From assembly GCF_000315545.1 (NCBI RefSeq), contig NZ_JH992902.1, forward strand, positions 159,280-223,279: a stretch of DNA of 64,000 nt, written 5' to 3'. The stretch's first letter is position 1. The number at the start of each line of letters is the position of its first letter. The translations under genes and the position numbers were made by a program. This DNA is from Selenomonas sp. F0473. Lineage in GTDB: Bacteria; Bacillota; Negativicutes; Selenomonadales; Selenomonadaceae. The notes beneath the pieces are model-generated. The model was given only the letters and a program-made list of their open reading frames with translations. It had not been told where the DNA came from and did not search any database. This document shows positions 24,656 to 33,069 of the stretch, piece by piece.

Positions 24656-25600
24656 ATGGCAAATCAGCTGAAGAAACTGCTCGGGATAGAGGTTCCCATT
24701 CTGCAGGGAGGTATGGCGTGGATTTCGGAGGCAAACCTCGCCTCGGCAGTTTCAAACGCGGGCGGTGCCGGCATCATCTCAACGGGCGGGCGCACGACGG
24801 AGTACACGCGCGATGAGATCCGCCGCTGCCGCAGCCTGACGGATCGCCCGTTCGGCGTGAATGTGATGCTCATGGCGCCAAATAAGGATGAGATCGTGGA
24901 TGTGATCTGCGAAGAGAAGCCCGCATTCGTGACGCTCGGGGCGGGGAATCCCGTGCCGTATTTTGAAAAACTGCACGCGGCGGGGGTCAAGGCGATTCCC
25001 GTTGTGCCGAGTGTGAAGCTCGCAAAGCGCGTCGAGGAAAAGGGCGCGGATGCCATCGTTGTCGAGGGCATGGAAGCGGGCGGACACATCGGCGTACTCT
25101 CGACGATGCCGCTCATGGAGCAGGTCATTCCGGAGGTCTCTCTCCCCGTGGTCATGGCGGGCGGATTCGGCGACGGACGCGGGCTCGCGGCCGCGCTCCT
25201 CATGGGTGCTTCGGGCGTACAGATGGGAACGCGCTTCCTCGTTGCAGAAGAGTGCGTCGTGCATCCGAATGTAAAGGCGAAACTGATTGCCTCCGTGGAT
25301 ACGGATACGATCGTGACGGGGAGCACGATCGGCGGATCCGTGCGCGGCGTGAAGAATAAATTCTCCGAGGAGTTTGTTGCGCTCGAGTTTTCCGGAAAGG
25401 CGACGAAGCAGGAACTGCTCGATCGTGCAACGGGAACCAATAAACTTGCGGCAGTGGACGGCGACGTCGTCAACGGGATGGTGCAGGCGGGGGAGACGTT
25501 GACGCTCCTGCGCGAGATCGAGCCGGTGCGCACGATCATCGAGCATATTGTCCGCGAGGCGAAGGAGACGCTTGCGCACGCGCAGAAGATCGAAGTCTAA
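24656..25600 (+). CDS. fabK: Enoyl-[acyl-carrier-protein] reductase II (FMN type)
   Basis: The 314-residue TIM-barrel flavoprotein reduces enoyl-ACP in the last step of each fatty acid elongation cycle. It begins KKLLGIEVPILQGGMAWIS and contains VEGMEAGGHIG near residue 139, PVVMAGGFGDGRGLAAAL near 166 and GVQMGTRF near 193, the FMN-binding pattern. FabK replaces FabI in many Firmicutes. It belongs to the nitronate monooxygenase superfamily, which is the main alternative. It is not beside other fab genes: ispF precedes and an unrecognised gene follows. TTGGAGG sets the start. Confidence 0.88.
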   Translation: MANQLKKLLGIEVPILQGGMAWISEANLASAVSNAGGAGIISTGGRTTEYTRDEIRRCRSLTDRPFGVNVMLMAPNKDEIVDVICEEKPAFVTLGAGNPVPYFEKLHAAGVKAIPVVPSVKLAKRVEEKGADAIVVEGMEAGGHIGVLSTMPLMEQVIPEVSLPVVMAGGFGDGRGLAAALLMGASGVQMGTRFLVAEECVVHPNVKAKLIASVDTDTIVTGSTIGGSVRGVKNKFSEEFVALEFSGKATKQELLDRATGTNKLAAVDGDVVNGMVQAGETLTLLREIEPVRTIIEHIVREAKETLAHAQKIEV

Positions 25601-30772: not shown

Positions 30773-31225
30773 ATGCATGCAGATTCGATGTTGACGATCA
30801 GCGAGGTCACGGATATTCTCCGTCAGAATAAGAAGAAGGTAACGCCGCAGCGGCTTGCCGTCTATACGGCGCTTGCCGCGACCAAAGAGCATCCGACGGC
30901 GGAGACCCTCTATAAGGAGCTGCGCCCGAATTATCCGACGATGAGCCTTGCGACGGTCTATAAATCTTTGGATGCGTTCTGCGAGATCGGCATCGTACGA
31001 GAGCTGAATGTCGGCGAGGAGGCGTTCCGCTACGATGCGGATATCTCGCAGCATCCGCATGTGCGCTGCATTGCCTGCGATAAGGTTGCGGACGTTCCCA
31101 TTACCTCGCTGCCCGCACTGGATAAAAATGTCGCGTCCTTGACGGGCTATCGCGTCGTCGCACAGCAGATGTACTTCTTCGGCTACTGCCCGGAGTGCCA
31201 GAAGAAAAAGATCAGTCAAAACTAA
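30773..31225 (+). CDS. Fur-family metalloregulator, PerR-like
   Basis: The 150-residue protein has a winged-helix DNA-binding domain (about 8-88, with KVTPQRLAVYTAL and LATVYKSLDAFCEIG) and a metal-binding dimer domain. Two CxxC pairs, CIAC near residue 101 and CPEC near 141, make the structural zinc site found in PerR and Fur. The recognition helix and short length fit PerR, the peroxide sensor, more than Fur, but the difference cannot be settled by eye. Iron or manganese and peroxide are the expected signals. The promoter carries a Per-type box. It is a single-gene unit. Confidence 0.85.
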   Translation: MHADSMLTISEVTDILRQNKKKVTPQRLAVYTALAATKEHPTAETLYKELRPNYPTMSLATVYKSLDAFCEIGIVRELNVGEEAFRYDADISQHPHVRCIACDKVADVPITSLPALDKNVASLTGYRVVAQQMYFFGYCPECQKKKISQN

Positions 31226-31321: not shown

Positions 31322-31780
31322 TTATCTGCGCGTTCTTCGTGCGAGGATACGGATCACCTTGGCGCCCGTACTCTTGATCCTACGGATGGGGGCGACGCGC
31401 GTTGTGGTCTTTGGACGAATCTCTGCCGGTGCGCGGAAATCGCCGCGGCGCAGATGCGTGCTCTTGGTCTTATCCGGCTGGAATGCCCTGCGCAGATCTG
31501 CGGCGATGGGCTCGAGTACCGCGTCCTCCATACAGAGATAGATATCGAGGGAGACATGGCGGAGATCCGGATGTACGTGCAGTGCCAGATGACCGTCCGG
31601 CAGCAGCGCCATCAGCGAGATATGACCGTTCTCCCGTACATCGCTGACGATCTGTAGGGGAGGCAGATTGATTTCCGTAAGCACTTCCGAAACTTTTATA
31701 CGGAGCGTTTCCTCGTCGCCGCATTTTTCACCTTTACAGTTATAAAAATCCACCGCCAGCAATCTCGATTGAATGGTCAT
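31322..31780 (-). CDS. SpeD-like protein lacking the pyruvoyl serine, with a basic tail
   Basis: Residues 5-115 resemble S-adenosylmethionine decarboxylase (SpeD): VDFYNCKGE near 10, then LLPDGHLALHVHP and VSLDIYLCMED. In active SpeD the motif ESH supplies the serine that is cut from the preceding Glu and becomes the pyruvoyl cofactor. Here it reads D62-G63-H64, so self-cleavage and cofactor formation cannot occur as known. The other active-site residues, H68 and C83, are kept. Residues 110-152 form a tail rich in Arg and Lys (LRRGDF...ILARRTRR) not usual in SpeD. A binding or regulatory role is possible. No other polyamine gene is nearby. Confidence 0.75.
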   Translation of the reverse strand: MTIQSRLLAVDFYNCKGEKCGDEETLRIKVSEVLTEINLPPLQIVSDVRENGHISLMALLPDGHLALHVHPDLRHVSLDIYLCMEDAVLEPIAADLRRAFQPDKTKSTHLRRGDFRAPAEIRPKTTTRVAPIRRIKSTGAKVIRILARRTRR

Positions 31781-31823: not shown

Positions 31824-31852
31824 ATTATAGAGGAAAGGCTGCCGGGCGTCAA
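31824..31852 (-). promoter_or_regulatory. Promoter of the SpeD-like gene
   Basis: On the minus strand TTGACG (31847-31852) and TATAAT (31824-31829) are 17 bases apart. With GAGGAG before the start codon this suggests a well-expressed gene despite the missing catalytic serine. Confidence 0.7.
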
Positions 31853-32034: not shown

Positions 32035-33069
32035 ATGTTTGGTCTTTTTGGTGGACACGATATGGGTATCGATCTTGGCACGGCAAATACGCTGGTGCAT
32101 GTGAAGGGCAGGGGAATCGTACTGCGCGAGCCCTCCGTCGTTGCGATCAAGAACGATACGGGCGATGTGCTCGCCGTCGGCGAGGAGGCAAAACAGATGA
32201 TCGGGCGCACGCCCGGCAATATCGTTGCGATCCGACCGATGAAAGACGGCGTTATCGCCGACTTTGACGTGACGCAGGCGATGCTGAAATATTTCATCCA
32301 CAAGGCGATGCGTTCGAAGTCGTTCGTGCGTCCGCGCGTTGTCGTCGGCGTGCCGTCGGGCGTCACGGAGGTCGAGAAGCGCGCGGTCATCGATGCGGCG
32401 CAGCAGGCGGGCGCACGCGAAGCGTATCTCATTGAGGAACCGATGGCGGCTGCCATCGGCGCGGGTCTTCCGGTGGAAGAGGCGACGGGCAGTATGGTCG
32501 TAGATATCGGCGGCGGTACGACGGAGATTGCGATCATCTCACTCGGCGGCATCGTGACGAGCCGTTCGATTCGTATCGGCGGCGACGAGATGGACTCCGC
32601 CATTGTGCAGTATATTAAGCGTATGTATAATCTCATGATCGGCGAGCGTACGGCGGAAGAGATTAAGATTTCAATCGGCACGGCGATTGTGACGCCGGAT
32701 ACGGATCGTACGATGGATATTCGCGGACGGGATCTCGTCAGCGGACTGCCCAAAACGTTGAATATCCACGCGAAGGAAATTCGCGAGGCGCTGAACGAGC
32801 CGATTTATAAGATCATCGACGCCGTGAAGAGTACCCTTGAAAAGACGCCGCCGGAACTCGCCGCTGACGTCATGGATCACGGGATTATGATGACGGGCGG
32901 CGGCGCGCTCCTTACGAACCTCGACAAGCTGCTCTCACATGAAACGGGGATGCCCGTACTGGTGTCGGAGGACGCTCTTTCCTGTGTCGGCGAGGGGACG
33001 GGGCGGACGCTTGAGAACATCGGCCTCCTCAAAAGCGTCGTCATGTCGTCGAAGAAATTAAGGCAATGA
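32035..33069 (+). CDS. mreB: Rod-shape-determining protein MreB
   Basis: The 344-residue actin homologue forms membrane-bound filaments that organise lateral wall synthesis. Actin-type nucleotide motifs are clear: [11 protein letters not shown] near residue 9, [18 protein letters not shown] near 157 and [15 protein letters not shown] near 283. The length is standard. AAGGAG lies 12 bases before the ATG. The stop overlaps the mreC start by four bases (ATGA), which begins a chain of tightly packed shape genes. Confidence 0.98.

Follow-up and report, generated by a model that had tools for sequence, protein, structure and literature searches.

The window, by which we mean the whole stretch of 64,000 nucleotides analyzed here, encodes a short SpeD-like protein that lacks the pyruvoyl serine of the enzyme and carries a basic C-terminal tail. 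With a probability of roughly 0.6, we consider that this protein represents a class-specific, non-catalytic derivative of SpeD, in which a tailed ancestor acquired a second function borne by the tail and Ser63 was lost repeatedly, while the fold and the tail were kept. The family itself is real: a conserved, class-specific group of pseudoenzymes whose intact relatives carry this tail as well.

The open reading frame lies on the minus strand and runs from an ATG at 31780 to 31322, encoding 152 amino acids. The plus strand of the same interval (31322-31780) is interrupted by a stop codon. The features are listed below, with the evidence for each in parentheses.

31322-31780, minus strand: SpeD-like pseudoenzyme with a basic tail, 152 amino acids, stop codon at 31322-31324 (open reading frame, Pfam, phmmer, structure model, and Foldseek)
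31466-31780, minus strand: SpeD-fold core, residues 1-105 (Pfam AdoMet_dc, residues 8-113; Foldseek to 1tlu)
31589-31597, minus strand: Asp62-Gly63-His64, at the position of the self-cleaving Glu-Ser-His (codons, phmmer alignment, and family alignment)
31577-31579, minus strand: His68, kept (phmmer and family alignments)
31532-31534, minus strand: Cys83, kept (phmmer and family alignments)
31325-31465, minus strand: conserved basic tail, residues 106-152 (alignments and tail-profile searches)
31394-31411, minus strand: predicted beta strand of the tail, residues 124-129 (AlphaFold2 model)
31331-31369, minus strand: predicted C-terminal helix of the tail, residues 138-150, basic and amphipathic, of lower confidence (model and hydrophobic moment)
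31824-31852, minus strand: promoter-like site TTGACG-17-TATAAT (sequence match)

The gene is flanked by those for a Fur-family regulator (30773-31225, plus strand) and mreB (32035-33069, plus strand). The promoter-like site, read from 31852 to 31824, agrees with the consensus at 11 of 12 positions, in line with the near-consensus promoter of the preliminary description, and an AGGAGA was recognized by eye upstream of the ATG.

Pfam AdoMet_dc matched residues 8-113 of the protein with 59.1 bits (cut-off, 25), and phmmer aligned it with the AdoMet decarboxylase (AdoMetDC) of T. maritima over 6-113, gaplessly but weakly (E = 0.007). A model predicted by AlphaFold2 from 63 family sequences had a mean pLDDT of 87.2, and its best match among solved structures in Foldseek was the T. 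maritima enzyme, 1tlu (E = 1.6e-8, TM-score of 0.86 by target). The objection that the fold might not be SpeD-like is thereby removed. In the alignment, Glu62-Ser63-His64 of the T. maritima enzyme are replaced by Asp-Gly-His (codons GAC GGT CAT, 31597-31589), and His68 and Cys83 are retained, both as first read from the letters of the window. The residues S63, H68, and C83 are stated to be essential for the self-processing of SpeD in PMC10407285. The normal pyruvoyl group cannot form without Ser63, as the preliminary description held, and the pyruvoyl serine is absent throughout the genomes examined in the family of the window's organism. The protein scored 45 bits against TIGR03330, the NCBIfam equivalog for adenosylmethionine decarboxylase, below the cut-off of 75.65. 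The fold, the family match, His68, and Cys83 are thus those of a functioning AdoMetDC, but residue 63 and the TIGR03330 score are not. The window protein is SpeD by fold and descent but, judging from its sequence, which lacks the defining serine, probably does not function as an AdoMetDC.

Class 1b AdoMetDC/SpeD (T. maritima 1tlu and the B. subtilis type) shares with the window protein the fold, the ungapped 6-113 alignment, H64, H68, and C83. However, the window protein lacks Ser63 and has the class-specific tail, and positions 49 and 72 are mostly changed in its Gly63-bearing relatives. The non-processing S63A mutant of the T. maritima enzyme (1tmi), an uncut proenzyme with position 63 replaced, has a natural counterpart in the window protein. 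That mutant was engineered from an active enzyme, whereas the change in the Negativicutes protein is old and fixed.

Gly63 was present in all 49 genomes of the family of the window's organism (group f1, Selenomonadaceae by inference), a count that includes the frameshifted L037, which is excluded from the set of 103 sequences described below. A lone mutation, as considered beforehand, is not what was found. Over the 103 sequences, residues 62-64 read EGH in 31, DGH in 13, ESH in 12, QGH in 11, RGH in 7, and other triplets in fewer, and residue 63 was G, S, T, A, C, F, V, or H. Of the DGH motif, whose conservation had been the question, the glycine held within the family, and the spelling is not conserved over the 103 sequences, EGH being the commonest. 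The close homologs all have Gly63 and do not retain Glu-Ser-His, whereas distant ones, including some Sporomusaceae, keep it together with the tail. Before these counts, we removed L053 (tail cut by a contig end), L037, L089 (a tail-less SpeD), T. maritima, and duplicate loci of one genome. In L037 (4381-4992), from the congener G005, the tail lies in a different frame from the core, which reflects a frameshifted gene or an assembly error.

The tail follows the distribution of the class. In a set of 80 genomes, comprising the window's own genome, its relatives, and the class, 79 had a SpeD match, and the short tailed copy was read in 75 of these. A tail-only profile of 53 positions matched 283 of 300 Negativicutes genomes, including 223 of 227 of high quality, with a single match per genome in every case but one; the conservation of the tail in Negativicutes, raised in the preliminary description, is thus confirmed. 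Four high-quality genomes (G062, G147, G204, and G277) lack the gene, which is therefore not indispensable. When 398 genomes sampled from the phylum were searched, the same profile matched 16 of 17 class members and only 3 of 381 other genomes, weakly and partially (E = 0.001-0.006); 359 of the unmatched genomes are counted among these others because of their order of listing. The DNA pattern for RGDFG-x3-DMKP, searched in GTDB contigs, lay in frame within an ORF of the family in all 80 loci listed out of at least 120, one of these ORFs being cut by the locus end. By title, the 80 listed loci are Negativicutes except four, namely three "Acholeplasmataceae" MAGs and one "Bacillota bacterium". 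The proteins of the three MAGs (L168, L180, and L191) are 100% identical over at least 152 residues to those of class genomes of group f15, and their titles are probably wrong labels. The tailed protein of the fourth locus shares 78% identity with its Sporomusa counterpart. On the samples examined, we thus take the tail to be class-specific.

The added basic tail of the preliminary description corresponds to about residues 106-152, and its median net charge over 103 family members is +12, compared with -4 for the core. The class consensus is KTTxLKRGDFGxxxDMKPKxKTxVAPLRRIxNTGAKVIRxLARR. In an alignment of 59 sequences, T108, R112, and P123 are invariant, and G113, D114, F115, T138, and G139 are nearly so. 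The mean information per column is 2.93 bits in the tail and 2.20 bits in the core (61 rows with a single member of the window's genus, 12 others being excluded from the table). In 84 of 103 rows, the C-terminal helix had a greater hydrophobic moment than 95% of the shuffled versions of that same helix. The tail of the window protein was modeled as a strand (residues 124-129) followed by a helix (residues 138-150). That of Veillonella parvula SKV38 (L151:1007-1510, minus strand), whose protein reads GFH at residues 62-64 and has Phe at 83, was predicted as a single basic helix of 34 residues, with TG-K motifs that appear by eye to be repeated, a pattern that would fit growth of the tail by duplication. 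In both models confidence is lowest in the helix, with block means of about 62-81. Pfam and NCBIfam cover residues 7-113 only, and neither has a known domain in the tail. A match of the tail to one PDB chain (PLZ2.3, E = 0.0024) had no stretch significant alone and was judged to be a chance match.

Some Sporomusaceae carry the identical type of tail on an intact Glu-Ser-His enzyme. In a tree rooted on tail-less canonical SpeD, built with column 63 left out and with the state scored as Ser or not, these rows branch first and on short branches. Because distant relatives keep both Glu-Ser-His and the tail, the tail seems, from the sequences, to be older than the loss of catalysis. At least 8 changes of state at residue 63 are needed in the tree of 104 rows, and 5 in a smaller tree of 32 rows chosen from among these, most of the long branches being left out. 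When the non-Ser rows were all constrained to a single clade in the smaller tree, the cost was 21.9 log units (p-AU = 0.018, in a test devised after the larger tree had been seen), and a single loss of Ser63 alone is accordingly disfavored by the sequences. The backbone is weak, with 36 of 101 inner branches open in the larger tree; one Ser row (L083), with a long branch, is nested among Gly rows; and Ser63 occurs in several f28 and f35 rows that lack both Glu62 and Cys83. Therefore, the number and direction of the changes are uncertain, and losses and regains may be mixed.

The core and the tail have diverged differently in the intact and altered forms. In the fully intact form (9 rows, having Cys83 as well as Glu-Ser-His), the core identity is 0.78 and the tail identity 0.66, with the proviso that these rows are mutually close relatives and that the tail serves as the only, inner, control for relatedness. 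Among the 74 Gly63 rows the values are 0.32 and 0.51, and the tail is more similar than the core in 2614 of 2701 pairs; the remaining 20 rows gave 0.32 and 0.45 (183 of 190 pairs). Position 49 is F in 9 of 9 intact rows but in 8 of 74 Gly63 rows, and position 72 is E in 9 of 9 and 25 of 74, respectively. We take F49 and E72 to be residues of the AdoMet pocket in the T. maritima enzyme. D11, H64, H68, and D79 stay in the Gly63 rows, which retain H64 in 72, H68 in 68, and C83 in 64 of 74 cases; judged from this conservation, some chemistry or ligand binding could remain.

Selection on the protein is still visible within the genus. Over 13 members, the median dN/dS was 0.115 for the core (77 of 78 pairs) and 0.042 for the tail (69 of 78 pairs), both rough values since the synonymous sites are near saturation (mean pS of 0.6). 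By this measure the tailed protein is under purifying selection, strongest in the tail. The repeated loss of the catalytic residue might suggest a decaying relic without function, but this reading is contradicted by the sequences, with the gene present in nearly all high-quality genomes of the class (223 of 227), a dN/dS of about 0.1, and invariant residues across the rows examined; it has next to no probability.

A catalytic role might nevertheless be sought, either as an AdoMet, arginine, or ornithine decarboxylase, like SpeDA and SpeDC, or in another reaction of the pocket. The Glu-Ser-His tailed rows look intact, and the two of them that were scored (L011 and L092) reached 144 bits in TIGR03330; moreover, H68 and C83 are mostly kept in the Gly63 rows. 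According to PMC10407285, two SpeDs in one genome served as a flag for neofunctional SpeDs, and some SpeD-SpeDC fusions have lost the active-site residues of their C-terminal part. SpeDA, SpeDC, and the degraded fusions thus resemble the tailed protein as SpeD paralogs of new or lost activity, but in the same source they are active enzymes or fused domains. The diagnostic residues of these decarboxylases are a Pro that separates AdoMetDC from the arginine enzyme (ADC), and Gln, Thr, Phe, and Tyr for the ornithine enzyme (ODC). The pyruvoyl serine that marks such decarboxylases is replaced by Gly63 in the window protein and found only in the Ser-bearing tailed relatives. With the normal pyruvoyl precluded, the residues at positions 49 and 72 changed, and the conservation of the core relaxed in the Gly63 rows, catalysis by the altered forms is hardly to be expected. 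The non-catalytic derivative described at the outset remains the preferred reading.

The genome of the window has one SpeE and one long SpeD of the E. coli type (276 amino acids, Lys-Ser-His, 409.7 bits in TIGR03331), which we take to be the active enzyme. An active-type SpeD accompanies the tailed copy in 65 of the 80 genomes, including that of the window (in G050, the tailed copy was seen only as a tail match), and all 9 genomes with intact tailed rows hold a second SpeD match. This arrangement recalls the prozyme of trypanosomatids, a catalytically dead AdoMetDC paralog beside an active one, and the tailed protein could be a bacterial prozyme, which would pair with the active SpeD to regulate it. 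The clearest precedent, the AdoMetDC/prozyme pair of trypanosomes (PMC5201418), was also among the Foldseek matches of the window protein (5tvm). However, the tailed copy is the only SpeD match in 11 of the 80 genomes, three of which are 82-84% complete, and 13 of 30 tail-bearing genomes of a second set have no other SpeD over the cut-off. Four of the 80 (G016, G023, G026, and G037; 94-99% complete) kept the tailed gene without another SpeD and without SpeE, that is, on the sequences, without the spermidine pathway. Given such persistence in the absence of another SpeD, acting on SpeD as a prozyme cannot be the general function of the gene product, and we consider this explanation improbable. 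The trypanosomatid prozyme, moreover, is a eukaryotic class 2 protein that acts on its partner, whereas the tailed gene survives without any other SpeD. As a separate observation, SpeE matches (269-311 bits) without an active-type SpeD occur in G021, G028, G044, G077, and G062; the only SpeD of the first four is the tailed Gly63 form, and G062 has none.

The surroundings of the gene differ between families. In many Sporomusaceae and related loci, it is divergent from a nitronate monooxygenase-like gene, beyond which genes that we read as ctsR, mcsA, and mcsB often lie; ctsR itself is the direct divergent neighbor in Veillonella and group f28. CtsR, McsA, and ClpC in these neighborhoods, and GlmS below, are names recognized by eye from the sequences. 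This position beside the nitronate monooxygenase-like gene and ctsR is probably the ancestral place of the tailed gene. In most Selenomonadaceae read, the gene is elsewhere, for example, by an lgt-type gene, a glmS-type gene, or, in the window's genus, mreB; Propionispira retains the old order. A nitronate monooxygenase-like gene is also found in the window at 24656-25600 (plus strand), 5.7 kb from the tailed gene, and is likely a remnant of the old order.

These neighborhoods bear on a further explanation, in which the product would be a peripheral membrane protein whose basic amphipathic helix binds anionic lipid, perhaps in connection with the diderm envelope. Such a helix is predicted, at 34 residues in the Veillonella parvula model, and the restriction of the tail matches the diderm class. 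In 14 distinct genomes, the tailed gene is immediately preceded on its own strand by an lgt-type gene, of which one member was named by Pfam, and in the window's genus it has mreB as its divergent neighbor. However, the neighbors change from family to family, and the invariant and nearly invariant residues of the tail suggest a specific docking site and not a broad affinity for lipid; we therefore regard a membrane protein as rather unlikely.

Candidate companions and foreign origins were rejected. No constant operon partner was found across the neighborhoods compared. Coupling to the arginine kinase McsB, suggested by the Veillonella and Sporomusaceae neighborhoods, was discarded because a match to PF00217, which we assume to represent McsB, is missing in 10 of 37 genomes, eight with the tail (G016, G023, G031, G054, G077, G086, G133, and G198) and two without (G062 and G147). 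Coupling to an AR-fold ornithine/lysine decarboxylase showed no pattern: PF02784 matched in 15 of 20 genomes (E < 1e-50), in all three tail-less genomes of this set, yet not strongly in the window's own. A phage or plasmid origin was likewise rejected. The scanned viral contigs held no close relative of the window protein, and the plasmid records gave one weak match, to speD of Azospirillum (E = 4e-4). The intact form matched 149 phage records, of which the best 20 were cyanophage SpeDs. Two records of one phage, S-SM2, seemed to cover 94% of this query, but the S-SM2 speD has 336 bases and the alignment extends into the adjacent gene. Even at E = 1, the tail alone (51 amino acids) had no match among 50,697 records of phages and 72,556 of plasmids.

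For the preferred, non-catalytic derivative, we propose the following course. An ancestral SpeD of the Negativicutes would have gained the basic tail while it was still an intact pyruvoyl enzyme, and the tail would have carried a second function. Decarboxylation would have been covered by a separate SpeD, either the long E. coli-type enzyme or a short SpeD without a tail, as seen in two genomes. Ser63 could then have been lost several times, with the fold and the tail retained. Bacterial SpeDs pair face to face (PMC5201418), and the SpeD domain may now be a scaffold that, paired in this manner, presents two tails. Because H64 and H68 remain, the pocket may still hold a small ligand, perhaps via D11, H64, H68, and D79. 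The tail, with its beta strand and basic amphipathic helix, would dock on a specific acidic partner. The missing serine, the relaxed core, and the conserved tail are seen in the sequences; the scaffold role, the retained ligand, and this docking are what we infer.

As the partner of the tail, RNA or the ribosome is the likeliest candidate, named tentatively as a first guess because the fixed R112, P123, T138, and G139 go beyond mere charge. An acidic protein surface comes second, as a possible but doubtful partner, and the membrane third, as an unlikely one. It is conceivable, if speculative, that a tailed SpeD assumed an important regulatory task in the ancestor of the Negativicutes, for instance as a ligand sensor that docks on the ribosome or RNA by means of its tail, and that several families later lost catalysis independently of one another, the regulatory half remaining near-universal.

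No paper on a tailed SpeD-like protein was found in the literature searched; the one paper there that names both Negativicutes and adenosylmethionine decarboxylase is a study of OmpM, with the enzyme appearing in the title of a reference. In the main text of PMC10407285, the terms Negativicutes, Firmicutes, Bacillota, Selenomon-, Sporomus-, Veillonell-, and Dialister are all absent. Annotation of the family calls for caution, for the "speD" label need not mean spermidine synthesis. An EGH member (L082:4661-5125, minus strand) scored 79.0 bits against the TIGR03330 cut-off of 75.65, and some dead members would thus be named adenosylmethionine decarboxylase by the NCBIfam equivalog. Since intact and dead versions with the same tail occur in living species, the step from enzyme to non-enzyme is directly testable. 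The gene is nearly class-wide in these diderm Firmicutes, and the name SpeD implies a pyruvoyl enzyme, which most of the 103 members read cannot be. The near class-wide retention of a dead SpeD with its tail suggests an undescribed, non-enzymatic job.
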